Source of the DNA: Kiloniellaceae bacterium
Lineage (GTDB): Bacteria > Pseudomonadota > Alphaproteobacteria > Kiloniellales > J153
Assembly: GCA_021776095.1 (NCBI GenBank)
Contig: JAJFGO010000122.1
Location: 1-64,000, forward strand
Direction of reading: 5' to 3'
DNA: 64,000 nt
The notes beneath the pieces were generated by a model. That model searched no databases. It was not told the DNA's origin and saw only the letters and a program-made list of their open reading frames with translations. Positions 165 through 13,616 of this stretch are shown one piece after another. The position numbers and the translations under genes are program-made. Every line of letters starts with the position of its first letter. Positions within the stretch are counted from its first letter, which is position 1.

Positions 165-2258
165 GTGCCCATCATGCGACCACTGCGGATCTTCCTCGGC
201 GACCTGAGCTATTTTAACGCATACACCGAATACGGCGTCTACGTCCCCTTGAACATCGGTTTCCTGGCCGCTTACGCCAACAAAAAATTCGGCCGCGAGG
301 TTGAGATCACCCTGTTCAAGGACCCAGAGGTGCTGCTGCGTTCGGTCGCCGATGAGGCCCCTGACTTGGTTGGTCTGTCTTTTTACTATTGGAACTCGGC
401 GCTGAACCATCTGGTGACCCGGCGGATTCGTGCGCTGCGCGGTAATGACCTAAAAATCGTCTGGGGCGGTCCGTCTGTCGATACCGACCCTGGAGAGCAG
501 CGCGGCCTTTTCGCGCGTTTTCCCGAGGTCGATGCCTTCATTGCAAACGAAGGCGAAATCGGCTTTTCGAATGTGGTGTCGCATCTCCTATCGAGCAAGC
601 GTGGCGCGTTCGCCGATCCGCTGGACGGGGTCGTATTCAAGAGCGGCGACAATCTGGTGGAGGGCCTCCCGGTCGGACTTACCACGGACCTCGGCGAACT
701 GGAGTCGCCCTATCTTCTCGGGCTGCTGGATCCGTTCATGGATGGCAAGCTCATGCCGATCATCCAGACATCCCGGCTCTGTCCCTATACCTGCGCCTTT
801 TGCGTCTCGGGCAAATCGCGTGGCAAGTTACGGGCTTTCCCGATTGAGCAGGTCCGTGCGGAAATGGAATACATTTGCCGGCGGTTTTCGGACCGGCCTG
901 ATTTCACGATTTATATCTCGGACGAGAATTTCGGTATCCTCAAACGCGATGTCGAGGTCGCCGAGCATATTCGCGAGTGTTCCGAGAAGTTCGGTTATCC
1001 GCGCAAGGTTTTCTTCTATAACGACAAGAGATTCACTGAAACCTCTCGGCAGGTGCACGAGGCGGTGGGGGACCTGTGCCTTTACGGCTTGACCCTCTCG
1101 CTGCAATCCGAAAACCCAGATACCCTAGAAGCGATCAAGCGGCGGAACCTCTCGCCGGAGCAACTCGCCTCGGCAATCGATTGGGCCTCCGAGCAAAATC
1201 TGCCGACCACCACGGAGCTGATATTCGGGCTGCCGGCGGAGACGTTGGATTCCTTTACCCGTCTGCTTAACAAAACCAGTACCGCCGGATTCGATTCGAT
1301 TCAGTGTTACAACCTGATCGTCCTCGACGGCATCGAGTTGAATCGGCCGGACTATCGAGAGAAACACGGCCTAGTGACCAAGTTCCGTCACGTCAGCGCC
1401 AGCTATCAGACGATCGACTCGGAATTCTGCGGCGAGGCCGAAGAGGTGGTCATATCGAGCAATGCCTTTTCGTTCGACGACTTCTTATTGGTTCGCGGCC
1501 TGAACTTGATGTTTCACGCGATTTTCTATCTCAAATTGTATCACGGGTTCTTCAAGTACATCTGCGAGGCCGACATTCCCCTGGCCGACTTCCTTTGCCG
1601 TTTTCTCCGGCCCGGCCTCGAGGCCGAAAATTTGCCAGAGGCCTACCGTAATTTTCTGAGCGATTTCGAAACGTCGGCGAAGAGCGAACTCTTCGACACC
1701 AGAGAGGAAGTCGTGGCTTACATGAATCGGCTGTCTAAGGACGCCGATGGCGAGTTGGTCGAGCCGATCAAGATCACACCCCACTATGGCATGCGCCTAA
1801 TCCAGCACGAAATGTCCTGGGTCGCCCCGGTGTTACGGCGAATCTTGGAATCCATGGTCCCTGCGGAGCGCGCGGAGCAGATATTGCGCACGGCCAATTT
1901 TCTGCTCGAACTCGGCGATCGCGAGCGCGTCAACTTCAAGGCCAGCCACCTGCCCAAGCCGCTCGAAACCGAATTCGACGTCCTCGCCTGGAGGGCCGGC
2001 AAGTTCCGCCGGCCGCTGGAAAGCTATCGCAGATCCCGTTCCCGGATCGTCTTCACCGAGAGCGCGCGATTGCAAGAAGCCAGCGTGGACTTCAAAAAGA
2101 AGGCGGGCGAACAACCCGGCGGGCATTTCGCCCATCAAGAAGCGGAAGATTTCTATTTTTACGCCCTTGGCCACTTCACGCTCTCGCCGGTCGATCTGCT
2201 CTATAGAATGTCATATGCTGAAGACGCTTCGGCCGCGGTTGACGGCATGGTCGCCTGA
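165..2258 (+). CDS. B12-binding-domain radical SAM protein
   Basis: This 697-residue protein has a Rossmann-like cobalamin-binding N-terminal domain (about residues 1-170, with VGLSFYYWN and a VWGGPSVDT loop, then an ANEGE segment). A radical SAM core follows, with the cluster motif CPYTCAFC: C206, C210 and C213, spacing Cx3Cx2C. The C-terminal 250 residues are family-specific. No DxHxxG motif is seen, so cobalamin would bind without a lower histidine. Members of this class do radical methylations or rearrangements; the substrate here is unknown. The first start is GTG at 165, with an in-frame ATG at 174; neither has a strong ribosome binding site. It is convergent with the FAD gene and borders the glycan island, so sugar or lipid modification is an inference. 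The 164 bases before it hold no gene that I can see. Confidence 0.85.
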   Translation: MPIMRPLRIFLGDLSYFNAYTEYGVYVPLNIGFLAAYANKKFGREVEITLFKDPEVLLRSVADEAPDLVGLSFYYWNSALNHLVTRRIRALRGNDLKIVWGGPSVDTDPGEQRGLFARFPEVDAFIANEGEIGFSNVVSHLLSSKRGAFADPLDGVVFKSGDNLVEGLPVGLTTDLGELESPYLLGLLDPFMDGKLMPIIQTSRLCPYTCAFCVSGKSRGKLRAFPIEQVRAEMEYICRRFSDRPDFTIYISDENFGILKRDVEVAEHIRECSEKFGYPRKVFFYNDKRFTETSRQVHEAVGDLCLYGLTLSLQSENPDTLEAIKRRNLSPEQLASAIDWASEQNLPTTTELIFGLPAETLDSFTRLLNKTSTAGFDSIQCYNLIVLDGIELNRPDYREKHGLVTKFRHVSASYQTIDSEFCGEAEEVVISSNAFSFDDFLLVRGLNLMFHAIFYLKLYHGFFKYICEADIPLADFLCRFLRPGLEAENLPEAYRNFLSDFETSAKSELFDTREEVVAYMNRLSKDADGELVEPIKITPHYGMRLIQHEMSWVAPVLRRILESMVPAERAEQILRTANFLLELGDRERVNFKASHLPKPLETEFDVLAWRAGKFRRPLESYRRSRSRIVFTESARLQEASVDFKKKAGEQPGGHFAHQEAEDFYFYALGHFTLSPVDLLYRMSYAEDASAAVDGMVA

Positions 2259-2424: not shown

Positions 2425-3780
2425 TCACGCAGCGACAAGCTGCCGCACAGCTCTAAGAATATCGTAGCGAAAGCAGGCGGCTTCGGTTTCGACGACGATT
2501 CTTGGGCTAGCTGCGGCGATCCGCTCTTTGAGGCTGCGCAACGCGGCCGAATGCCCGGGCTTTCCAACCTGATAGGAAACCGGCGTCTTCAATATATGCA
2601 CGTCATCGTAATCTTCGCCTGTCACGGCTCCGTGGGCCACCGCCGAGCCCCAGACAGACTCGGCGTGCCCCTCCGGATCCTCCCAGACCGGTGATCCAAT
2701 TTCGGTCGTAACCTCGCAGCAGATATAGGTGCTGCCGTCGTCCTTTATCTGTCGCCCATAATGGCCTGGCGCCGAGATCCGATAGACCAGATGCTCCGGC
2801 ATGAAATCATGAAGAAACTCGTAGGGGCCGACCCTGTCCTGAGGCAAAACGAAGTAGTAAAGGACCATAGGTACTTTGTGTACGAGGCCGGCGATGGAGT
2901 CTTCGCCGAATACGAGCTCCGATAATTGGCCTAGATCGGCCGCCCAAAAGACCCTGTCGAAGCGGCGCTCGGTGCCGTCCGTAAGCAGGGCCGAAACTCC
3001 CTGCGCGTCGGACTGCATCGATTTCAGGCGCGTGCCAAGGCGGAGCTCGATGCCGGCGGCGGCCAGGTAGCGTTCGGCCGCATCGCAAAACCCCTGCATA
3101 CCCTTTTCCGCGGGATAGAAATGCCGGTGAGGAAAGGTGGTCAATGCCCCGGGAACGTGGCGGAAGGGGTCGTCTTGGGTAGAGTCCGCCAGGCGCTCAT
3201 CCAGGACCGGGTGGGACTTCAGCATCCTGGTCGCGACCTCCGGCAGCAGCCGGATACGGCCGAAATTAGTCACCCGCAATACCGAGGCATCCAGTTCATT
3301 CGGATGGACGCGCAGAAATTTCCACGCCGCCTTTCCCAGATAATCAGCCGCAGTCGGCCCGAATTGTAAGTGCAGCGCCTGCTCAAGGGACTCGGCCTCT
3401 TGGGTGTCTTCGACGCCTTCGGCCTGGGCCTTGACCATCTCATAGAGAATTTTGGCGCAAACGTCCTTTCCCAAAACCGTAAGATCGGGAATCGTGAAGC
3501 CCTTGCTCAGCTTGCCCGCGGTAACGCTGGCATACCGAGCGGATACCGGCACGATTGCCCAGTCCATGATGTCGAGCAGGATCTCGGTCATTTCGCGATC
3601 ATCGTTGCCAAATATATGGCAGCCTTTGTCCAGGTAGAAGCCGTTCCACTCCTTGCCGCGCATCAAGCCGCCAAGAGCAGGAGAGCTTTCAACCAAGGTG
3701 ACCTTGCACCCAGAGCGCGAAAGGAAGTAGCTGGCAATGATGCCCTTAAATCCGCCTCCGACGATCAACACATGGTCCAC
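2425..3780 (-). CDS. FAD-dependent amine-oxidase/UDP-galactopyranose-mutase-like oxidoreductase
   Basis: The protein is 451 residues. The N-terminus is a dinucleotide-binding fold with VGGGFKG at residues 7-13, an acidic strand end (VTLVESS) and a GGLM segment. That pattern is shared by protoporphyrinogen-oxidase-like amine oxidases and UDP-galactopyranose mutases. The C-terminal half matches no specific reaction that I recognise. It is divergent from the acyltransferase gene at 3887, with an AT-rich 106-base gap between them, and convergent with the radical SAM gene. The position beside nonulosonate genes suggests a role in building a surface glycan, but that is inference only. The flavin fold is seen clearly; the substrate is unknown. 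Confidence 0.75.
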   Translation of the reverse strand: MDHVLIVGGGFKGIIASYFLSRSGCKVTLVESSPALGGLMRGKEWNGFYLDKGCHIFGNDDREMTEILLDIMDWAIVPVSARYASVTAGKLSKGFTIPDLTVLGKDVCAKILYEMVKAQAEGVEDTQEAESLEQALHLQFGPTAADYLGKAAWKFLRVHPNELDASVLRVTNFGRIRLLPEVATRMLKSHPVLDERLADSTQDDPFRHVPGALTTFPHRHFYPAEKGMQGFCDAAERYLAAAGIELRLGTRLKSMQSDAQGVSALLTDGTERRFDRVFWAADLGQLSELVFGEDSIAGLVHKVPMVLYYFVLPQDRVGPYEFLHDFMPEHLVYRISAPGHYGRQIKDDGSTYICCEVTTEIGSPVWEDPEGHAESVWGSAVAHGAVTGEDYDDVHILKTPVSYQVGKPGHSAALRSLKERIAAASPRIVVETEAACFRYDILRAVRQLVAA

Positions 3781-3886: not shown

Positions 3887-4984
3887 GTGGATATGTGGAC
3901 GGTCATATCAGCCGCGCAGCACGACCGATGGATGGCCTGCCTCGAAAGGCTCGGGCGGTACGACGTCTATCACCTGCCCACCTACCACCGTGCTTACGAA
4001 GCGGACACCGCTTCACGTGCCCATGCCTATGTCGCGGAGATCGGCGGCGAGACCCTGTTCCATCCCATCATGCTGCGCCCGATCGATCGGGTCGGCGAGG
4101 CGCCGGCGCCTGAGGGTCTCTGCGACGCGGAAACGGTTTACGGCTATAGTGGCCCTTTGGCGAGCACGGTCGATCAGGATTTCTTGGCCGAGGCTTGGCG
4201 CGGTTATAGCGAGTGGTACGCCGAGCGCCGTGTGGTCTGCGAATTCACTCGCTTCAATCCCATGCTCAAGAATCACGACGTTGCCGCGCCGGGGTGCGAA
4301 ACCTGGCAGGACCGGCAGACGGTCGCCATAGACCTCGGCGCGGGCGAAGACGCCGTGTGGCAAGGCTACGCCGGTGTGCACCGCAACAGCATCCGTAAGG
4401 CCGTGAAGAATGGCCTTAAATGCGAACAACGCCCTGCGCACGAGGCCATGCTTGCATTCCGCGCTATCTACGAAGAAACCATGCGCGGGCTGGAAGCGGA
4501 CCCTGCATATTATTTCTCCGAAGATCACTATTTGAACTTGAGCGAAGGCCTCGGTTCGAGGCTTCGTCTGTTCATGGTATCGGCAAACGGCACCGATGTT
4601 GCCGGCGCCCTGTTCCTGGTTCACGGCGATACCCTGCATTACCATCTGGCTGGCAGTCTTCTATCGCACCGGCAATTGGCGCCGAACAACCTCTTGATCC
4701 ACAAGGCCGCCCGCTGGGCAATTGGACAAGGCCTCAAGACCTTCCATCTAGGTGGCGGGCGTGGGCCGGAGCCCGAAGACTCCCTATTCCGTTTCAAGGC
4801 GCGCTTTTCCGGGCGCCGCGAAGACATGTGGTTCGGCAAGCAGATCTTCGATTCCGCCGCCTATGAGGCATTGGTCTCACTCTGGCACGAACAATTCCAG
4901 GCGGAAGAGCCACCCGCCTACCTCCAGCTTTACCGGATCGATCCAAGAGGTGGCGGGCCGAGCGGCCGCCACGTGGCCGCATGA
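3887..4984 (+). CDS. FemAB/BioF2-like GNAT acyltransferase
   Basis: This 365-residue protein looks like the tandem-GNAT FemAB/BioF2 acyltransferase group. There is a conserved HRNSIRKAVKNG segment near residue 165 and a C-terminal half with LAPNNLLIHKAARWAIGQG and an LGGGRGPEPEDSLFRFKARFS-type loop. Such enzymes move an acyl or aminoacyl group onto an amine. Its stop overlaps the start of the legG/neuC-type gene by four bases (ATGA), so the two are translationally coupled. The cluster encodes no left-handed beta-helix N-acetyltransferase of the LegH type. I infer that this protein may acylate the 4-amino sugar intermediate or decorate the finished nonulosonate. ATG at 3887 is used; M3 is an alternative. 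Confidence 0.75.
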   Translation: MDMWTVISAAQHDRWMACLERLGRYDVYHLPTYHRAYEADTASRAHAYVAEIGGETLFHPIMLRPIDRVGEAPAPEGLCDAETVYGYSGPLASTVDQDFLAEAWRGYSEWYAERRVVCEFTRFNPMLKNHDVAAPGCETWQDRQTVAIDLGAGEDAVWQGYAGVHRNSIRKAVKNGLKCEQRPAHEAMLAFRAIYEETMRGLEADPAYYFSEDHYLNLSEGLGSRLRLFMVSANGTDVAGALFLVHGDTLHYHLAGSLLSHRQLAPNNLLIHKAARWAIGQGLKTFHLGGGRGPEPEDSLFRFKARFSGRREDMWFGKQIFDSAAYEALVSLWHEQFQAEEPPAYLQLYRIDPRGGGPSGRHVAA

Positions 4985-6171
4985 ACAGTTCCGCCATGAA
5001 GCGTATCGCTATCGTCACTGTCGCTCGGTCCGACTACGGCGTGTACCGGCCCCTGTTAAGGGCCCTCGACGCCGACCCCGACTTCGAGCCCCTGCTGATC
5101 GTGGCCGGTGCACACCTGGCCCCCACGTTCGGCGAAACTGCCGCGGAAATCGAGGCCGACGGGCTCAGGGCCGCTGCCACCTTGAATTTTACCCAGGCCG
5201 GCGACTCGCCTCTCGACGTGGCCCGCGCCATGGGCCAGGGCACCCAGCAGTTCGCCGAGGCCTACGCGCAGACCCAGCCCGATATGATTGTGGTGCTGGG
5301 CGACCGTTTCGAGATGCATGCCGCGGCCGTGGCCGCGGTGCCTTTCCTGATCCCGATGATCCATATCGACGGCGGCGCCTTAACCCTGGGCGCCATCGAC
5401 GACGCCTTCCGGCACGCCATGACCAAACTAGCCAGCCTTCACTTCGTGGAGACCGAGGCTCACGCCACCCGGGTGATCCAGATGGGCGAAGAGCCCTGGC
5501 GGGTGACCGTGGCCGGGGCTCTGGGCCTGGACAATCTGGCCGCGGTGCAATTGCTGACGCCGGGGCAGATTCAGCAGCGTTTCGGGCTGCCGCTGCCGCC
5601 CGGCCGGCCACCCCTGCTCGCGACCTTTCATCCGGTCACGCGGGAGTTCGCGGAGACGCGCGACCACATGCGCGCCTTCCTGGCCGCAATCGAGGAATGC
5701 GGATTGCCGGTCGTTTTCACTTATCCCAACGCCGACACCGGCGGTCGGATCATCATCGAGATGATCGAGGCCTATGTGGCGCGGCGGGAGGATGCTTGGG
5801 CCGTGCCGCACCTGGGCACTCAGGGATATTTCAGCCTCATGGCCCTGGCCGCGGCCATGGTCGGCAATTCCTCCAGCGGACTTATCGAGGCCGCGTCCTT
5901 CGAATTGCCGGTGGTCAACGTCGGCCACCGTCAAGACGGCCGCTTCGCCCCGCCCAACGTCATCGCCACAAGGTCCGCGAAAGCGGACATCCTCCAAGGT
6001 ATTCGTGAGGCGGTTTCCCCTGAGTTCCGGGCCGGCCTAGATTCTCTAGTCAATCCCTACGGCGACGGCCAGGCGGCGGCGCGCATAATCTCGGTTCTGC
6101 GGCAAACCGATCCGAAGAACCCCCGGCTTATCCGGAAGAGCTTCCACGACCTGCCACCTGCCGCGCCCTAG
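4981..6171 (+). CDS. neuC: Hydrolysing nucleotide-sugar 2-epimerase (LegG/NeuC family)
   Basis: At 396 residues this has the full length of the hydrolysing UDP-GlcNAc 2-epimerase family. Visible signatures are the N-terminal VARSDYGVYRPLL, then GDRFEMHAAA, MIHIDGG and the C-terminal GNSSSGLIEA nucleotide-binding loop. In sialic or legionaminic acid synthesis this enzyme removes the nucleotide and inverts C2 to give free ManNAc or 2,4-diacetamido-trideoxymannose. The neighbours legB, legC and a guanylyltransferase favour the GDP-linked legionaminic route (LegG) over plain NeuC. It overlaps the upstream acyltransferase by four bases, and its 3' end overlaps the convergent cytidylyltransferase gene by 44 bases. 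Confidence 0.9.
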   Translation: MNSSAMKRIAIVTVARSDYGVYRPLLRALDADPDFEPLLIVAGAHLAPTFGETAAEIEADGLRAAATLNFTQAGDSPLDVARAMGQGTQQFAEAYAQTQPDMIVVLGDRFEMHAAAVAAVPFLIPMIHIDGGALTLGAIDDAFRHAMTKLASLHFVETEAHATRVIQMGEEPWRVTVAGALGLDNLAAVQLLTPGQIQQRFGLPLPPGRPPLLATFHPVTREFAETRDHMRAFLAAIEECGLPVVFTYPNADTGGRIIIEMIEAYVARREDAWAVPHLGTQGYFSLMALAAAMVGNSSSGLIEAASFELPVVNVGHRQDGRFAPPNVIATRSAKADILQGIREAVSPEFRAGLDSLVNPYGDGQAAARIISVLRQTDPKNPRLIRKSFHDLPPAAP

Positions 6172-6892
6172 AGGGTGCCGCGTCGCTGTCTTCGGACTCC
6201 CGTTCGAGCCATGAGGCGACCGCCTCGGCCAGGACTAGGTCGAATTCGGTGTCGATGTCGAGCGACCGCTCCTTGGGCATGAGATAGCCGAGCGTCTCGG
6301 GCGAGACAAAGTCGGGCTGGTTCACAATCCAATCGCAACGGGCGGCGAAAACCGCACCGTTGGGCGCATAGGCCGGCGGCAGGTCCTGTCGGCGCGTAGC
6401 CAGATAGTGCTCGGGCATGATCGGCGTCATCCGCCCGCTATCGTCCAGCTCGAAGGTCCAGTGCGGCGGCTTGGCCGGAAGACAAACCGACACGCAGGCC
6501 GGCGCGCCGGACTCTATGCAAAGCCGCACCACGCCATCGATATCCGCGCCGGTGTAAAACGGCGAGGTCGGCTGCACCAGCACAATGAAGTCATAGCGCT
6601 CCGGCAGTGTCTCCAGGGCATGGCGCACCACGTCCATCGAGCACGCGCTGTCCGTCGCTAACTCAGCGGGGCGCACGAAGGGAACCTCACATCCGAGCAG
6701 AATGGCGGCCTGAATAATCTCCGGATCGTCGGACGATAGCACAACCCGGTCCACGCAGGCAGCCGCGCGCGCCGCCTCTACCGCCCGGGCGATAAGAGTT
6801 TTGCCGCCGACTTCCCGCAGGTTCTTGCGGAGCACCCCTTTCGAGCCACCGCGTGCGGTGATCAGGCCGAGAACCGTTAGATCGCCGATCAT
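6128..6892 (-). CDS. neuA: CMP-nonulosonate synthetase (acylneuraminate cytidylyltransferase)
   Basis: The protein has 254 residues. The diagnostic CTP-binding segment ITARGGSKGVLRKNL is at residues 11-25, followed by VVLSSDDPEI, VLVQPTSPF and YAPNGAVFA, all typical of NeuA/LegF/PseF. It activates a nine-carbon sugar as CMP-sugar for a glycosyltransferase in the cytoplasm. Its start overlaps the stop of legC by four bases. The last 44 bases of coding sequence run into the convergent neuC gene; the C-terminal tail there is low-complexity (Ser/Arg/Gly) and lies outside the catalytic fold. The substrate is probably legionaminic-type given legB and legC. Confidence 0.9.
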   Translation of the reverse strand: MIGDLTVLGLITARGGSKGVLRKNLREVGGKTLIARAVEAARAAACVDRVVLSSDDPEIIQAAILLGCEVPFVRPAELATDSACSMDVVRHALETLPERYDFIVLVQPTSPFYTGADIDGVVRLCIESGAPACVSVCLPAKPPHWTFELDDSGRMTPIMPEHYLATRRQDLPPAYAPNGAVFAARCDWIVNQPDFVSPETLGYLMPKERSLDIDTEFDLVLAEAVASWLERESEDSDAAPSRARQVAGRGSSSG

Positions 6893-8109
6893 GGCTCCAG
6901 ACTACCTCGCACGGCTCCGATCACGCGCTGTTGCGCCGCCTCGCTCAACCCGGTCGAACAGGGTAGCGACAGAATTTCACGGTGAAGCCACTCGGCGACC
7001 GCGCCGCCCAACACCTCGGCGCCGGTATGGGCCGGGCTGAGGTGCAGAGGCTGCCAGAAGGAACGGGTGTCAATTCCAGATTCGCGCAAGCGCCGACGAA
7101 GTTCCCGGCTGTCGCAAGCGGCCACCGCCGGGTCAAGGCGAATACTGTAGAGCCAAAACGCGCTTTTGGCCCAGGGTTCTTCCGGCATGAGCGAAAGGCC
7201 CGGCACCCCGTCCAAGGCTGCGGCGTAACCGGCCGCGATCCGGCGCTTGGCCGCCAGAAATCCTTCGAGTTGTTCGAGCTGCGCGCAACCCATGGCGGCC
7301 TGAATATTGGTCAGACGGTAGTTGAAGCCGACCTGCCCATGGATACCTTCATCCGCATCGTCCTTGGCGGTGGTGGTCAGATAGCGGACCCGCGCGGCCA
7401 GCGCCGGGTCGCCGGTCACCACCATGCCGCCGCCGCCGGTGGTCATGACCTTATTGCCATTGAAGCTGAAGCAGGCCAGGCGCCCGAATCGGCCGACATA
7501 CTGGTCGCGATAGGTGGCACCCAGGGATTCCGCCGCGTCCTCGATCACAGGAAGATCGAATTTAGCCGCGACCGCCAACAGCGGACCTAGATCGACCGGA
7601 TGGCCCAATACGTGGACCGGCAAAATAGCGGCAATTCGCCGGCCGCTTTTTGGATTGAGTAATTCGCCATCGGACCAACGGCAATGGGTCTCCAAGAACT
7701 CAACCGCCCGCCCGACATCCATCTGCCAGGTGCTAGGATCGGCGTCCACGAAGACTGGCCAGGCCCCGGCATAGCGCACGGCATTGGCCGGTGCGATGAA
7801 AGTGAAGCTGGGCATCAAGACTTCGTCGCCCGGCGCCACTCCGGCGGCGAGCAAGGCGACATGCAGCGCCGCGGTGCCGTTCACGGTCGCGACCGCGTGC
7901 CCGGTGCCCAAATAGGTCGCGAAATCCGCCTCGAAACGATCGACGAACGACCCGACCGAGGATACCCAACCGCTATCCAGGCAATCCTTAACGTAGGCCC
8001 ATTCGTTACCGCCAATCGCCGGTTCGGCCAGAGAGATCGGCAACTCGGACAGTGGCTCGGCGCCTCCGACGGCCGCCAGCGCGCGCTTCAGAGGTCGGCT
8101 CATGTTCAC
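6889..8109 (-). CDS. legC: LegC-type PLP aminotransferase (DegT/DnrJ/EryC1 family)
   Basis: The 406-residue protein is a sugar aminotransferase. Seen are NGTAALHVAL near the N-terminus (phosphate binding), VIEDAAESLGATY (the aspartate that contacts the PLP ring nitrogen) and CFSFNGNKVMTTGGGGMV with the Schiff-base lysine in the NGNK motif. The NGNK form and the length fit the LegC subgroup, which aminates C4 of the 4-keto-6-deoxy sugar made by LegB. It sits between legB and neuA on the same strand and overlaps neuA by four bases. A 57-base gap separates it from legB. Confidence 0.88.
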   Translation of the reverse strand: MNMSRPLKRALAAVGGAEPLSELPISLAEPAIGGNEWAYVKDCLDSGWVSSVGSFVDRFEADFATYLGTGHAVATVNGTAALHVALLAAGVAPGDEVLMPSFTFIAPANAVRYAGAWPVFVDADPSTWQMDVGRAVEFLETHCRWSDGELLNPKSGRRIAAILPVHVLGHPVDLGPLLAVAAKFDLPVIEDAAESLGATYRDQYVGRFGRLACFSFNGNKVMTTGGGGMVVTGDPALAARVRYLTTTAKDDADEGIHGQVGFNYRLTNIQAAMGCAQLEQLEGFLAAKRRIAAGYAAALDGVPGLSLMPEEPWAKSAFWLYSIRLDPAVAACDSRELRRRLRESGIDTRSFWQPLHLSPAHTGAEVLGGAVAEWLHREILSLPCSTGLSEAAQQRVIGAVRGSLEP

Positions 8110-8166
8110 AATGCTCCCTGGCCCACCTGGGGGCCCGGCACATGGTGTCCAAAATGGGGTAAGGCT

Positions 8167-9174
8167 TCACACATTGTAAATGCCGGCCTTATAGCTCTCG
8201 AGCTTCTTGGGATCGGCAAACCATTCGACCGTGCGTGTCAGGCCATCGCGCAAGGGCACTCGCGGTTCAAAATCAGTCAATTTTCGGATCAGGCTATTGT
8301 CGCACCAGAGCCGAAACACTTCGGAATTTTCCGGGCGGAGCCGTTCGGACTGTTCCAGAATCTCGATGTCGCTGCCCATGATTTCCTTGATCGTAGCGAC
8401 GGTCTCGCCGATCGATATCTCCCGGTTGGAGCCGATATTGACCGTCTTGCCCAAGGCGGCGTCGCAAGCGGCCAAGGCCATGAGCCCGGCGCAAGTATCC
8501 TCGACATAGGTGAAATCCCGGGTCGGCCGGGTATCGCCCAGCTTCAACTGCCGCACCCCGGTTGCGATCTGCGTGATGATCGTGGGAATCACCGCGCGCG
8601 CCGATTGGCGCGGGCCGTAGGTGTTGAACGGTCGGGCGATGGTCAAGGGAAGCTCGAAGGCGTGGTGATAACTCATGGCCATGGCGTCCGCGCCAATCTT
8701 GCTGGCGCTGTAGGGCGATTGCGGCTGAAGCGGATGCTCTTCGCTGATCGGCACCTGGCGCGCAGTGCCGTAAACCTCGCTGGTCGAGGTGTGAACCACC
8801 CTCGCGACCCCGGCCTCCAGGGCCGCCTGACAAATGTTTAGCGTGCCGGTGATGTTGGTTTCGACGTAGGTTTGCGGCGCGACGTAAGAATAGGGAATGG
8901 CGATCAACGAGGCCAGGTGGAAGACAATGTCCACGTCCTTGACCAGGGACTGACAGAAGAACGGGTCCCGGACGTCGCCGGTCCGAATGTCGATGGCGTC
9001 GCTGGGCTCAATGTCCTCGAGCCAGCCCCAGTTGTTGAATGAATTGTATTGCGCCAAGGCCCGCACCTGACAGCCACGCGCGATCAAGCTTTCGCAAAGG
9101 TGCGAACCAATGAAGCCATCCGCCCCGGTCACCAGGACGGTCTTGCCGGACAATCGATCCAAGAGCTTACTCAT
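8167..9174 (-). CDS. legB: LegB-type NAD-dependent nucleotide-sugar 4,6-dehydratase
   Basis: This 335-residue short-chain dehydrogenase-type protein has the Rossmann motif GADGFIGSHL (about residues 17-26), the substrate loop HTSTSEVYG, and the catalytic YSASK (Tyr-x3-Lys). The extended form and the RPFNTYGPRQSARAVIPTII segment match LegB/PtmB-like dehydratases. It should convert GDP- or UDP-GlcNAc to the 4-keto-6-deoxy sugar, the first committed step of the legionaminic pathway. Its start overlaps the stop of the guanylyltransferase gene by four bases, indicating one operon. Confidence in the dehydratase is high, in the nucleotide moderate. Confidence 0.88.
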   Translation of the reverse strand: MSKLLDRLSGKTVLVTGADGFIGSHLCESLIARGCQVRALAQYNSFNNWGWLEDIEPSDAIDIRTGDVRDPFFCQSLVKDVDIVFHLASLIAIPYSYVAPQTYVETNITGTLNICQAALEAGVARVVHTSTSEVYGTARQVPISEEHPLQPQSPYSASKIGADAMAMSYHHAFELPLTIARPFNTYGPRQSARAVIPTIITQIATGVRQLKLGDTRPTRDFTYVEDTCAGLMALAACDAALGKTVNIGSNREISIGETVATIKEIMGSDIEILEQSERLRPENSEVFRLWCDNSLIRKLTDFEPRVPLRDGLTRTVEWFADPKKLESYKAGIYNV

Positions 9175-10388
9175 GCTCTGAGCTTTCCAGCGGCTACGTC
9201 GAGTTGGGCCCGCTCGTAGTCGTCATGTTGGCCGATATCGAGCCAATACTCATGGATCGGAAAGCTCACGACCCGGCGTCCTTCGGCGATCAGAACGCTT
9301 ATCAGGTCGGTCATATCGAAGCGACGACCGTCGGGTATATGCCGACTGACCTTGCTCTCCATCAGGTAGATGCCGGCATTGACGAAGAGGCCGACGCTCG
9401 GTTTCTCTCGAATTTCTCGGACCAGCGGCCCCTCGCAGTCAACCACACCATAGGGCACGGTCATGGTGTAGTGGCGCACACCGACTGTCAGATCGGCCTT
9501 GTGCTCGCGGTGATACTCCAGCATGGCCGCATAATTGACGGTGGTCAGGATATCCCCATTGATCACCAAAGACGGCTCGTCATCGTCAATCTGCATCTGG
9601 CGCAGCGCACCGGCCGTGCCCAAGGGTTCGTTCTCGTGGCTGTAATGAACCACCGCGTCGAAAGGGCTGCCGTCGCCGATGAATTCCTCGATCTTTTCGG
9701 CCTGGAAATGGGTCGTGATATTGATGTTGCGGATTCCAGCACCGCGCAGGCCTTCGATGGTGCGCTGAAGCAAGGGCCGGTCGCCCACCTGCAGCATGGG
9801 CTTCGGCGTTTCCCGTGTCAGCGGCCTGAGCCGCATGCCGAGGCCGCCAGCCATGATGACGGCGCGCATGGGTAGCCCCTGCCCTCGGACAAAGCGGCTG
9901 AGCAGAGACAGCGCGACCAGGCAGCCGTTCTCGTCGGTCATCGGCACATGGCGAACGGCGGTTTCGCCCATCAGACGAAGAAGCTGCACCGCAGGCGTAT
10001 CGTGCGGCGCGGTGATCGGTTTTTCATAGACGCGTGGAATCCCGTCGTCGAGAAGCGTCTGTAGACGGTCGTTCAAGTCGACGCCACGCAGGATCGCGCG
10101 CCGGATATCCCCATCTGTGATCGTGCCCAGAAGCCGCCGTTTCGAATCGACCACCAAGACAAGTCCCTCGGCGTTGCGGTCAATCCGGGCAATGGCGTTC
10201 TTGATGGTGATGTCCGGGCTGGTGCAGAAAGGTTCGATGTCCCGGATCACCACGTCGGGGTTCATCGTGGGGCCGACCACGGGCATTTGGGATTCGAGCA
10301 AGTCGAAGGCGTCCGCGCGCTCGGCGCTTGTATCCGTGTCCGCCTGGCTGGCGGCGTCACCCGAATCCTGCACCTTGGTCTTAGCCAT
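9171..10388 (-). CDS. ptmE: CBS-domain sugar-1-phosphate nucleotidyltransferase (LegX/PtmE type)
   Basis: At 405 residues this is a fusion. A tandem CBS pair (about residues 45-165) is followed by a nucleotidyltransferase starting at MRAVIMAGGLGMRLRPLT (about residue 175) with the PKPM lysine and NINITTHF. The same CBS-plus-guanylyltransferase build is known in PtmE of Campylobacter jejuni, which makes GDP-GlcN for CMP-legionaminic acid. It is directly coupled to legB by an ATGA overlap, supporting that role. It leads the four-gene legX-legB-legC-neuA run. CTP or UTP specificity cannot be excluded from sequence alone. Confidence 0.85.
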   Translation of the reverse strand: MAKTKVQDSGDAASQADTDTSAERADAFDLLESQMPVVGPTMNPDVVIRDIEPFCTSPDITIKNAIARIDRNAEGLVLVVDSKRRLLGTITDGDIRRAILRGVDLNDRLQTLLDDGIPRVYEKPITAPHDTPAVQLLRLMGETAVRHVPMTDENGCLVALSLLSRFVRGQGLPMRAVIMAGGLGMRLRPLTRETPKPMLQVGDRPLLQRTIEGLRGAGIRNINITTHFQAEKIEEFIGDGSPFDAVVHYSHENEPLGTAGALRQMQIDDDEPSLVINGDILTTVNYAAMLEYHREHKADLTVGVRHYTMTVPYGVVDCEGPLVREIREKPSVGLFVNAGIYLMESKVSRHIPDGRRFDMTDLISVLIAEGRRVVSFPIHEYWLDIGQHDDYERAQLDVAAGKLRA

Positions 10389-10486
10389 GTCTTAGGCTCG
10401 TAGCCACTTTCCCCGCCGCTGGTCGGCTCGCCAGACGATGGCGCCGCGAACCGGGACCACCGCCCGGGACAGTATCGGGCCAAAGG

Positions 10487-10502
10487 TTAAGAAAGTTCTT
10501 AA
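10487..10502. promoter_or_regulatory. 16-bp perfect palindrome upstream of the leg operon
   Basis: The sequence TTAAGAAAGTTCTTAA reads as TTAAGAA - AG - TTCTTAA, a perfect inverted repeat. It lies in the 193-base gap between the Maf gene and the nucleotidyltransferase gene, 99 bases upstream of the latter, followed by an AT-rich tract. The symmetry suggests a dimeric regulator. The half-sites resemble CtrA halves but the spacing is N8 instead of N7, so I do not call it a CtrA box. Confidence 0.35.
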
Positions 10503-10581
10503 TATATTGAGAGAATTAGGTTTTTCTGCCCGGCCGCGCAGCCCCCGTGACGGTTACGGGCCGGCCGCACGATCATGGGCG

Positions 10582-12573
10582 TTACCCCCCGTCCAAGGTC
10601 GCCTCCATCTCGTCCAGGAGGTTCTCCAAACTTTCCCGAAGACGCCCGATCAAGGCTCTCAATTCCTCCGCGGCCATACGTCTATAGGCCTCACTTTTGG
10701 CCCTATCGCAAATACGGCGGTCGTACCAGGATGCGCACCCAACGGTTAGTTGCAGGGTGCCGCCCAGCAGCGTGGCATTGGCCGGACTCTGGTGCTCCAT
10801 CGCCTGAATCGCGTCACAAAAACTTTGGAGCCAATCGACGCTCGACCCCGGGTCGGTCGCCAAGGCCGCGAGCATCTCCTCCAGGTGATCGAAGATCGCC
10901 GCGCTCTGCGCGCGGATATCGGCCCCGCGCCACTGCTTGGACCACATCTCGGGTTTGCAGTGGGCGAGGCCTTGGGAAATTTCACTTCCCAGCGCAGCCC
11001 GGTCGATCGTGTTCTCCGGCAGCTCGATGGCGCGCGTGACTTTCGGTACGGCCCCGTCAATGCGAACACCGTCGCTGCAGTTGTAGACCTGAACCGAGCG
11101 ATAATGGCGCAGTGTGTTTTCGAAAACTTTACGCGACCAGTCGAAAACGTGAGACCCGACGGCGATACCGCCAAGGTTACCGGAAAAGGGTCTAGAGGCC
11201 GTCACAGTCTCGTCGAGCAGACCGGCGCCATAGGCCGACTCCTTGGCGTGAAATTTGCCCTCCGATTTGGTACCCATGTCGACGCCGAATAGATAGATTT
11301 TTCGAAAGCCGAGGCGGATGGACGAAACCAATGCCGCGTTCGCGACCGTCGGCCCGGCGGGCTGCAGGAATGGAAACGATCCGCCGAAGATTCGCGTTGG
11401 GGTCACTCGCTCGCGAAAGAAAAAGACCGCCCGATCTAAGAGGCGGGGCAGGTCGGGGTGAACCGTCGCCGAGGCAACAAGGGTCACGCCGCCAAGGTCG
11501 AACTCCTCAGCGATTGCCGCGATGATCTTGGGGTTCCCAACTCCATTCTCCAGCTCGATGTGGAAGTCGGGCCGGATGCCGTGAGCAAGAAGAGACCGCA
11601 AACCGGTTCCGATCGACATCAGCATCGCCCGCCCGGCGTGGGCAACGATGAAGTCCAAGTCCGCTTCAACGGAGGGGCCGCTGCCGATCACGAATATAGG
11701 CTCGTCACGCGCGGCTAGGTATTCGCCCAGGATCTCGGTAGTGCCCGCGGCGAGGTTGCCGGCCGCGTTGCGGCACATGATGCGCTCGTCCTCGAAAAAA
11801 CCCAGGCCAGAGACTGATAAGGAAAGATCTTGCCGGATGAGGTCTTTAGCCCGATCTAGAATGACCGAGCTGTAGTTCGTGAATAGGCTGATCCCGTCGA
11901 GCAGGGTGGGATTGTTGCCGCGCAGCACCTGGCTGACCTTGCCCGCGATCTCCGCCGGATTCTGGCCGACAATCAAGCTGAAGCGCACGCCGTTCCGGTC
12001 GCCGAATTCGAACAAGGCGGCCCAATCCGTCACGTAAAGCGAATGGTACAGATACTCGATGTTCGGCTCGATCAGGATCGCAACCTTGGCTTCGGTCCGC
12101 TCGACCAGGGTTTGCAGGTGAAGGCCCAGGCCGATTCCGAAGGCCAGCAGGAAATGGCTGTTCGGAAAGGTCTTGGCGGGATCGTAGGCGATTCCGACGT
12201 TCTTCATGCGATCGCGCAGCGCCACGCAGAAGTCGCCGGTTAGGCCCGGCATTTTTTCCGGGTCGGGCTCGTTGATGAATTCGCGGGTCGGTGCCTTGGC
12301 GAAGAGCGCGAGTTGGGCGCTAGCGTGGGCGACCGCATCCTGGCCATAGAGCCGCTGGCCTCGAAAGCCGATGTCGATTTCGCCGTCCGGATCGACGATT
12401 AAATCGGTGTTCGGCACCTCGATGACGGCTAGACGGCTATAGAGATGAGGGGCCCATCGCCGGATGGCGGCAAGGTTGTTCCGGAAGAAATCGTTGGCCC
12501 CTGGGGTTTCTGAGGCTCCGGGCACTACTAGGCTGTCAGGGGCCTTGGCTGTTGTTGCTGCCGATTCCGTCAC
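10582..12573 (-). CDS. maf: Maf-type motility-associated flagellin glycosyltransferase (DUF115)
   Basis: This 663-residue protein has the DUF115/MptE-like core: a FVIGSGPSVEADLDFI loop near residue 295, then PDFHIELENG, a VASATV strand and IYLFGVDMG, which together bind a nucleotide sugar in Maf proteins. Flanking helical regions of about 250 and 200 residues are typical of bacterial Maf. These enzymes transfer pseudaminic or legionaminic acid onto flagellin Ser/Thr before export. It sits between the nonulosonate genes and flbT-flaF, which is the expected context. It is divergent from flbT across a 217-base region holding a perfect CtrA-type box. Confidence 0.88.
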   Translation of the reverse strand: MTESAATTAKAPDSLVVPGASETPGANDFFRNNLAAIRRWAPHLYSRLAVIEVPNTDLIVDPDGEIDIGFRGQRLYGQDAVAHASAQLALFAKAPTREFINEPDPEKMPGLTGDFCVALRDRMKNVGIAYDPAKTFPNSHFLLAFGIGLGLHLQTLVERTEAKVAILIEPNIEYLYHSLYVTDWAALFEFGDRNGVRFSLIVGQNPAEIAGKVSQVLRGNNPTLLDGISLFTNYSSVILDRAKDLIRQDLSLSVSGLGFFEDERIMCRNAAGNLAAGTTEILGEYLAARDEPIFVIGSGPSVEADLDFIVAHAGRAMLMSIGTGLRSLLAHGIRPDFHIELENGVGNPKIIAAIAEEFDLGGVTLVASATVHPDLPRLLDRAVFFFRERVTPTRIFGGSFPFLQPAGPTVANAALVSSIRLGFRKIYLFGVDMGTKSEGKFHAKESAYGAGLLDETVTASRPFSGNLGGIAVGSHVFDWSRKVFENTLRHYRSVQVYNCSDGVRIDGAVPKVTRAIELPENTIDRAALGSEISQGLAHCKPEMWSKQWRGADIRAQSAAIFDHLEEMLAALATDPGSSVDWLQSFCDAIQAMEHQSPANATLLGGTLQLTVGCASWYDRRICDRAKSEAYRRMAAEELRALIGRLRESLENLLDEMEATLDGG

Positions 12574-12725
12574 GCCGATCTTCCTATTTTGATCCTGAAC
12601 CGGTCCAGAGGAGGCATTGTCCGCATGGCGCCTAAGGGGCCAGCGCGCCGCTTACCGATCAGCCCATTTTCCGCCCTCAGCCTTGTCGACAACGGCTCTA
12701 TACGATTTCTTTAGCATCCACGTGT

Positions 12726-12740
12726 TTAACCGTTCCTTAA
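12726..12740. promoter_or_regulatory. CtrA-type box, perfect TTAA-N7-TTAA
   Basis: TTAA at 12726-12729, seven bases (CCGTTCC), TTAA at 12737-12740: an exact match to the CtrA recognition sequence described in Caulobacter. It lies in the divergent gap between the Maf gene and flbT, 51 bases before the preferred flbT start. ctrA itself is encoded at 33047. The motif is seen directly; binding is inference. Confidence 0.6.
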
Positions 12741-12790
12741 GCGCGTTTCTTTATCGTTACCAAACTTCTTTGACCGATCGGAACTTAGAC

Positions 12791-13180
12791 ATGCCTTTAA
12801 AGCTGTCAGTCAGTAAGGGGGAGCGGTTCATCGTCAATGGCGTGGCGATCCGCAACGCCGGCGATTCCGCGGAACTCGTTTTCGAGAACCAGGCGCAGAT
12901 CCTTCGCCAGAAGGATGTGCTTACCACGGAAACGGCGACGACTCCGGCGGCGCGGGCCTATCTCGCCCTACAGTGCGCCTATCTATTTCCAGATAAGTCG
13001 GCGCACTATCTGGGCCACTTCCAAGGTTACCTCGACGACTTTCTCGACGCTGCGCCGAGCGCGCAGCCCATTGCCGACGAGATCATGGAGAACGTGCGCG
13101 CTGATAAGCTTTATCAGGGCTTGAAGGCATGTAGCCGTCTGATCAGTCATGAGCATGAGGCTCTATCGCATGTCGTATGA
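12791..13180 (+). CDS. flbT: Flagellin synthesis repressor FlbT
   Basis: The protein is 129 residues from ATG 12791 (MPLKLSVSKGERFIVNG), the usual FlbT length and start. An open frame reaches upstream to 12617, but those codons do not resemble FlbT and include the CtrA box, so the later start is preferred. FlbT is a family that binds flagellin mRNA and represses or times its translation in alphaproteobacteria. Visible family features are GERFIVNGA-like and AYLALQ segments and the C-terminal YQGLKACSRLI. It overlaps flaF by 11 bases. Confidence 0.9.
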   Translation: MPLKLSVSKGERFIVNGVAIRNAGDSAELVFENQAQILRQKDVLTTETATTPAARAYLALQCAYLFPDKSAHYLGHFQGYLDDFLDAAPSAQPIADEIMENVRADKLYQGLKACSRLISHEHEALSHVV

Positions 13181-13616
13181 GACAGCGGCCCGGACCTACG
13201 AACATCGACGAACCAAAGGAGGCAGCCCCCGAGAAACCGAGGGGCGGGCCTTGCTTGAATCGGCGCGGCGCATGGCCGATGCCCAAGACAAGCCCGAGGA
13301 TAAGGTTGGCTTAGCCGCAGCCGCACGACTGAACTGGAGGCTCTGGACCATTTTGCAGGCCGAGCTCTGCGCGCCGGAATGCCCCCTGCCGCCAGAGATC
13401 CGCGCTAACATGATCAATCTCAGCAATTTTATCGACAAGAAGATGGTCGGCATTCTGGCCAACCCTCAACCGGACAAGCTCGATGTTCTGATCAACATCA
13501 ATCGGCAGATCGCTGCCGGGTTGTTGACTGAGATCGGCCAGCCGGACGGCGGACCTAACGGCGATCCGGACAGCGGCCCCGGCCCCTCCATGGGCGGCCC
13601 TGGGCACTCCATCTAG
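13170..13616 (+). CDS. flaF: Flagellar biosynthesis regulator FlaF
   Basis: FlaF acts with FlbT in flagellin expression and secretion in alphaproteobacteria. The protein is 148 residues from ATG 13170 (MSYETAARTY), which has a GAGG sequence nine bases upstream; in-frame ATGs at 13149 and 13155 are less well placed. The SPRETEGRALL motif and the NWRLWTIL and LPPEIRANMINLSNFI segments are the family hallmarks. The last 25 residues are a Gly/Pro/Asp-rich tail beyond the usual FlaF length. It overlaps the flbT stop by 11 bases, so the pair is coupled. Confidence 0.9.
   Translation: MSYETAARTYEHRRTKGGSPRETEGRALLESARRMADAQDKPEDKVGLAAAARLNWRLWTILQAELCAPECPLPPEIRANMINLSNFIDKKMVGILANPQPDKLDVLININRQIAAGLLTEIGQPDGGPNGDPDSGPGPSMGGPGHSI

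Follow-up and report, generated by a model that had tools for sequence, protein, structure and literature searches.

According to the accessible passages of PMC9298399, cytidine monophosphate (CMP)-legionaminic acid is produced in Campylobacter jejuni from guanosine diphosphate (GDP)-GlcNAc by LegB, LegC, LegH, LegG, LegI and LegF, in this order. The displacement of LegH as such has already been noticed in print, to judge from the available excerpt of a 2026 paper on a flagellar locus of Clostridium butyricum, in which no LegH orthologue is reported and a protein bearing an N-acetyltransferase domain is named in its place (PMC13317340). An amino acid-bearing form of the sugar, N-methyl-glutamyl legionaminic acid, is described for Clostridium botulinum flagellin in excerpts of two papers, where it is written 5-GluNMe,7-Ac (PMC5207245) or 5-Ac,7-NMeGlu (PMC2674064). 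In C. difficile type B flagellin, again from partial texts, a FemAB-like gene lies downstream of the glycosyltransferase genes and a glycine-linked peptide is carried on the amine of Fuc3N, the link between the two being left unassigned by the authors (PMC5207246, PMC5207245). The present analysis concerns a flagellin glycosylation island of a Kiloniellaceae bacterium (GCA_021776095.1) and the FemAB-type protein encoded in it. The window analysed is a stretch of 64,000 nucleotides, namely bases 1-64000 of contig JAJFGO010000122.1 (hereafter C27), and hence begins at contig base 1.

Like the C. jejuni system, this island encodes homologues of LegB, LegC, NeuC/LegG, NeuB/LegI and NeuA/LegF, a PtmE-like nucleotidyltransferase and a Maf transferase in a flagellar locus; it differs from it by the absence of LegH and by the presence, instead, of a FemX-type protein and a cassette of putative tailoring enzymes. 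A GDP-linked start, as in C. jejuni, is predicted from the domains of the PtmE-like protein. The interpretation favoured, with moderate confidence, is that a complete flagellum-linked CMP-legionaminic-type pathway is encoded, split by an assembly gap, and that the FemX-type FemAB protein replaces LegH as the 4-N-acyltransferase, probably with an aminoacyl-transfer RNA (aminoacyl-tRNA) as donor. A literature search, which most subscription papers lay beyond, retrieved no report of a FemAB protein in legionaminic acid synthesis.

All nine genes named in the initial annotation (femAB, neuC, neuA, legC, legB, ptmE, maf, flbT and flaF) were recovered by domain or model matches, and their content supports its description of a legionaminic-type flagellin glycosylation island with a Maf transferase. 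Indeed, besides FemAB, the window encodes a NeuC/LegG hydrolysing 2-epimerase (4981..6171, + strand; TIGR03568, 409.5 bits, cut-off 235.9, a model that does not separate LegG from NeuC), a NeuA/LegF-type CMP-sugar synthetase (6128..6892, - strand; PF02348, 66.6 bits, cut-off 22.6; no NCBIfam equivalog passed, the top model being PseF with 151.3 bits, under its cut-off of 205.7), a LegC aminotransferase (6889..8109, - strand; TIGR04181, 443.1 bits, cut-off 420), a LegB 4,6-dehydratase (8167..9174, - strand; TIGR04180, 497.7 bits, cut-off 475), a PtmE/LegX-like protein with CBS and nucleotidyltransferase domains (9171..10388, - strand; PF00571 and PF00483 above cut-off; no NCBIfam model above cut-off, the best being a guanylyltransferase model with 158.3 bits against 440) and a Maf flagellin glycosyltransferase (10582..12573, - strand; PF20157, 152.7 bits, cut-off 23.5; PF01973, 89.6 bits, cut-off 34.6), in which both the N-terminal and the MptE-like domains are present. 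The latter is adjoined by FlbT (12617..13180, + strand; PF07378, 107.1 bits, cut-off 27) and FlaF (13149..13616, + strand; NF009435, 95.8 bits, cut-off 91), which provide the flagellar context. As annotated initially, femAB and neuC are coupled by a common ATGA, and neuC is convergent with neuA, with an overlap of 44 bases. The leg run is tightly overlapping, as had been claimed, at ptmE/legB and at legC/neuA (4 bases each) but not between legB and legC, which are separated by a gap of 57 bases.

The nine-carbon sugar synthase NeuB/LegI had been reported as absent, and indeed none is found among the open reading frames of the part of the island lying in the window. That the island truly lacks this enzyme is nevertheless highly improbable. 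The genome assembly (122 contigs, 95.4% complete) contains a sole NeuB, encoded at C51:112207-113277, i.e. 748 bases before the end of a 114,025-base contig; it matches TIGR03569 with 450.5 bits, above the NeuB cut-off of 399.65, and PseI with 281.7 bits, below the PseI cut-off of 340.25, its substrate being predicted from sequence. The last 15 bases of C51 are identical to the contig start of C27 (1..15) in an exact suffix-prefix match, for which the chance is about 4^-15 for two given contig ends by simple arithmetic. Upstream of NeuB, C51 encodes two flagellin-like proteins (PF00669 and PF00700 in the one scanned), a tetratricopeptide repeat (TPR)/GT41 protein (PF13844) and three proteins that we take, by eye, to be FlgI, FlgK and FlgL; downstream of NeuB, an S-adenosylmethionine (SAM) methyltransferase ends 11 bases before the contig end. 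In a congener, G006, one contig carries the left flank, NeuB (87% identity), the methyltransferase (77%), FemAB (84%), NeuA (81%), LegC (83%), LegB (89%), PtmE (90%), Maf (81%), FlbT and FlaF. A sister species, G008, has an unbroken island in which flagellins, the TPR/GT41 protein and NeuB are followed, beyond an intervening stretch, by NeuC, NeuA, LegC, LegB, PtmE, Maf, FlbT and FlaF. NeuB lies in the island of all three congeners, that of G007 being different and lower-scoring.

Because of its position at a contig end, the 15-base overlap and the flanking synteny in G006 and G008, NeuB is assigned to the island, and its apparent absence is an artefact of the assembly; a missing or distant NeuB is ruled out on the same grounds, and a false report of a missing synthase is thereby corrected. 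C51 and C27 very likely abut directly, so that the assembly gap very likely falls after the methyltransferase that follows NeuB and before the radical SAM gene at the beginning of the window; this is short of proof because the join lies where gene content varies from species to species. A second nonulosonate cluster was also considered and is ruled out by the single NeuB and the single LegB match found genome-wide; in particular, no second complete leg or pse cluster, which the initial annotation had named as evidence against its proposal, was seen. In addition to Maf, all four genus members encode a TPR and GT41-like protein flanked by the flagellins and NeuB (L002:12204-14183, on C51 of this genome, G000), which could be a second flagellin glycosyltransferase.

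The absence of LegH, also claimed initially, was upheld by a genome-wide search: TIGR03570 gave 13 matches, none of which was above the cut-off of 160.8 bits (best 58.5 bits), and the LegH of G008, used as a query, gave at most 26.5 bits here and 23.7 bits in G006, versus 402.1 bits in G007. No LegH remnant was found in the island by tblastn (best E 4.5). The TIGR03570 matches on contig C82 were considered as a LegH encoded elsewhere and rejected, as they resemble LpxD/LpxA by their gene neighbours, recognised by eye.

LegH and FemAB alternate 2:2 among the four genus genomes, at a site bounded by neuB and neuC/neuA, LegB being present in all four. The FemAB of the window has a match of 711 bits in G006 and none at E<=1e-20 in G007 or G008; at E<=1e-3, a 21-bit match appears in G007 and still none in G008. 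Between G008 and this genome, DNA homology breaks off within neuB, some 20 bases from its end, and restarts about 250 bases into neuC. The two islands share flagellins, TPR/GT41 and NeuB on the left and the genes from NeuC to FlaF on the right; between them, G008 encodes an N-acetyl sugar amidotransferase (above cut-off), HisH-like and HisF-like proteins and a full-length LegH (160.0 bits, 0.8 below the TIGR03570 cut-off), which are replaced here by the methyltransferase, a B12-binding radical SAM protein, a flavin oxidase and FemAB. From these comparisons, the stretch between neuB and neuC/neuA is an exchange site, and FemAB occupies the LegH slot in it. The genus thus holds natural LegH/FemAB variants.

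In the exchangeable cassette, the radical SAM protein (165..2258, + strand) matches PF04055 (43.3 bits) and PF02310 (33.6 bits), both above cut-off; its nearest NCBIfam model is a KedN5-type C-methyltransferase (157 bits, far under the cut-off of 700), a weak match of 21% was obtained in G006, and no counterpart was seen in G007 or G008. The flavin amine-oxidase-like protein (2425..3780, - strand; PF01593, 59.4 bits, cut-off 19.8) is without relatives at E<=1e-30 among the 384 other genomes of the class (385 searched). G006 has retained the methyltransferase and FemAB and carries, as inserted genes, a different radical SAM protein, a NeuC with 42% identity and an aminotransferase-like protein; after its FemAB, 60 NeuC residues align and no more. 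In G007, the island showed no NeuC, and its LegH is accompanied by a NeuA and a NeuB (304.7 bits, below cut-off) that both differ from those of this genome. This region of G007 (L182:1832-5241) represents a third version of the cassette, composed of LegH, a 315-residue protein without NCBIfam match, and NeuA and NeuB of other lineages. In G008 (L184:5410-8989), the amidotransferase and the HisH- and HisF-like proteins adjoin LegH, a grouping which suggests that this sister species makes an acetamidino-modified sugar.

The FemAB/FemX-type transferase proposed to replace LegH (3887..4984, + strand) matches PF13480, PF02388 and PF04339 above cut-off. Its predicted model (mean pLDDT, the predicted local distance difference test score, of 92.9) retrieved in Foldseek, as the first eleven matches, FemX, FemA and the aminoacyl-tRNA-dependent synthases Sba18/Sbb17. 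In VIA-align, the Z-scores were 24.6-25.8 to FemX/FemA over 298-312 residues, 23.3-23.6 to Sba18/Sbb17, 16.4-18.4 to MprF types and 14.5-16.7 to the tandem GNATs listed, several of which were solved with acetyl-CoA (coenzyme A). The protein is therefore predicted to have the double GNAT fold of FemX type. In a profile alignment, F303-K304 of the window protein fall on F304-K305 of FemX (position counted by hand), both of which are reported as essential in the available part of PMC4964394; K304 is invariant in 10/10 FemABs of leg loci, and F303 is not. In comparison with Weissella viridescens FemX, a member of the FemABX family, the identity is 15% over the structural match, and the expected acceptor is an amino sugar nucleotide rather than UDP-MurNAc-pentapeptide. 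With 44.4 bits against a cut-off of 500 for the FemX equivalog NF047883, the protein is, by this model, a distant relative of FemX and not FemX itself. FemX-like enzymes acting on an amino sugar intermediate are already described: Orf11 of BD-12 performs, according to the passages seen of PMC12945691, the Gly-tRNA-dependent aminoacylation of streptothrisamine. Sba18 and Sbb17, whose structures are solved, are FemX-like enzymes for the same intermediate; like Orf11, they serve antibiotic synthesis and not flagellin glycans.

With no LegH found and FemAB located where it would lie, acylation of the LegC product by FemAB is the simplest interpretation. In the proposed pathway, PtmE, LegB and LegC would act first and yield a GDP-2-acetamido-4-amino-2,4,6-trideoxyhexose, the 4-amino group of which would be acylated by FemAB. 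The 4-N of the hexose becomes the C7-N of the nonulosonate. The acyl donor would most likely be the amino acid of an aminoacyl-tRNA, used by the substrate-assisted mechanism of FemX. Hydrolysis and epimerisation by NeuC/LegG, condensation with phosphoenolpyruvate by NeuB/LegI, activation by NeuA/LegF and transfer to flagellin by Maf would follow, and the methyltransferase, B12-radical SAM and flavin enzymes of the cassette may tailor the aminoacyl group. The flagella of this bacterium may thus carry an amino-acid-capped sugar. Of the two outcomes envisaged initially, i.e. that the missing steps are encoded elsewhere or that an unusual acyl variant is made, the former holds for NeuB, and the latter is the best reading for LegH. 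The C. botulinum sugar, a legionaminic acid with an N-methylated amino acid, is the kind of product proposed here; the passages seen name no gene for the amino-acid addition.

The association was examined beyond the genus. Scanning genomes with two peptide patterns of FemAB yielded 53 loci, of which three hold both NeuB and NeuC, namely those of a Kiloniellaceae metagenome-assembled genome and of two Butyrivibrio, in which FemAB follows NeuB; a LegC-like aminotransferase of at least 60 bits is present in 33 of the 53 (counted by hand over the stretches retrieved). A FemAB search in the 391 genomes of the class of Butyrivibrio G443 gave 14 genomes and 13 new loci, including three leg loci (L205, L206 and L208). 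Ten distinct FemAB leg loci are thus available (the window, G006, L099, L100, L150, L169, L170, L205, L206 and L208), eight of them clostridial; the start of the L099 contig cuts off the part in which LegB or LegC could be seen. There is no convincing LegH in any of the ten: at E<=10, the LegH model had no match in nine loci and a single one, of 29.8 bits, in L169, some 6 kb past LegB. The FemABs of the two Kiloniellaceae group, in a tree of 55 rows, with six Bacillota FemABs with support of 92/98, below the mark of 95 set for the tree, with long branches and composition warnings. LegB was also surveyed independently of FemAB, and was found in 45 of 387 genomes of the class to which the bacterium of the window belongs and in 27 of 299 genomes of the family of G443, which had itself been picked for its FemAB. 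The 44 other class stretches and 27 family stretches, several of them cut by contig ends, form with the window and G006 a set of 73 loci, all with LegB. Among the 52 of these that have NeuB or NeuC, 28 have LegH only, six FemAB only, none both and 18 neither (Fisher p=0.007, kinship ignored).

Several observations weigh against the replacement of LegH by a tRNA-dependent FemAB. The absence of LegH was observed in an assembly that is 95% complete, in 122 contigs, and LegB loci with neither enzyme are common (18/52), so that this absence alone says little. Without G006 and the G443 locus (L165), which were reached through FemAB, the counts become 28, 4, 0 and 18 and the association is weak (p=0.03, kinship ignored). 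FemAB relatives lie mostly outside leg loci, with 3/53 and 3/13 inside. A second, aminotransferase-like protein is encoded in nine of the ten FemAB leg loci, all but that of the window, and FemAB may act on the product of this protein in those nine. Finally, the FemX fold and the lysine, the former known from a predicted model, are no proof of a tRNA donor, and the top Pfam match is the PF13480 'Acetyltransf_6' domain.

This last match, together with the slot replacement, is what would be expected if FemAB replaced LegH but used acetyl-CoA or another acyl-CoA in the manner of an ordinary GNAT, with plain Leg5Ac7Ac or a simply N-acylated form as the product. Acetyl-CoA enzymes such as VipF and MAB_4324 do share the double GNAT fold (Z 15-17); however, aminoacyl-tRNA enzymes of FemX type fit far better (Z around 25) and the catalytic lysine of FemX is invariant, so that an acyl-CoA donor is considered unlikely. 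It is also rather improbable that FemAB acts on another substrate or at a later step, such as a free or CMP-linked sugar, another amine or the product of the extra aminotransferase, the 4-amino group being acetylated by an unrecognised acetyltransferase encoded elsewhere or left free. The 18 loci without LegH or FemAB near LegB do indicate that other genes, or genes at another site, can provide this step. In 17 of the 53 FemAB loci, mostly outside leg islands, the FemAB relative is paired with the aminotransferase-like protein, and the stretches of L150 and L205 have this protein but showed no LegC. Yet the extra protein was not found in the genome of the window, where FemAB is nevertheless joined to neuC by ATGA in the LegH stretch; the replacement of LegH by a FemX-type enzyme remains the preferred reading for this island.

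A broader proposal, held tentatively, is that of a tRNA-dependent branch of nonulosonate synthesis, in which a FemX-type enzyme would have displaced LegH in Kiloniellaceae flagellar islands and in several leg loci of Clostridia, and in which a linked methyltransferase, together here with the B12-radical SAM and flavin enzymes, would tailor the product. A methyltransferase that belongs, at 60 bits or above, to the family of the window's enzyme is present in 4/6 FemAB loci versus 0/46 others in the set of 52, and in 4/10 FemAB leg loci; as the query was the window's own protein, these counts favour its close relatives. The stretch of L208 showed neither NeuB nor NeuC, and an in-frame TAG lies within its FemAB match; that one of the ten leg loci showed neither gene weighs slightly against this broader proposal. 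If the proposal is true, aminoacylated nonulosonates of flagellin, for instance the N-methyl-glutamyl legionaminic acid of clostridia, could be made in this way. Acyl groups on amino nitrogens are a main source of flagellar nonulosonate variety; the exchange of an acetyltransferase cassette for one of FemX type would explain how legionaminic acids bearing amino acids can originate and would link flagellin glycans to charged tRNA.

The aminotransferase-like family (e.g. L100:11032-12108, L098:8973-9989, L102:1317-2411 and L097:8643-9860) gave no Pfam match in the four members scanned, and has a DegT-type predicted fold with an invariant Lys and an invariant Asp. In L150 (4411-18313), from a Butyrivibrio relative, the order is flagellin, methyltransferase, NeuB, NeuC, aminotransferase-like protein, FemAB, NeuA, LegB and PtmE, with no recognised LegC.

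The other FemAB match of this genome (contig C96, 39.7 bits) was rejected as a component of the pathway, as it sits, judged by eye, in an exosortase/PEP-CTERM-like exopolysaccharide cluster (L020, G000 C96:18000-34000), which thus has its own FemAB-like gene. A formyltransferase was considered as a general substitute for LegH and rejected: it is present in three of the 18 loci with neither enzyme, yet five of the eight loci encoding it hold LegH as well. Among the LegH-free leg loci, formyltransferase-domain proteins are encoded at L061:13963-14961 and L071:10427-11371, which suggests, from their domains, that N-formyl variants are made there.

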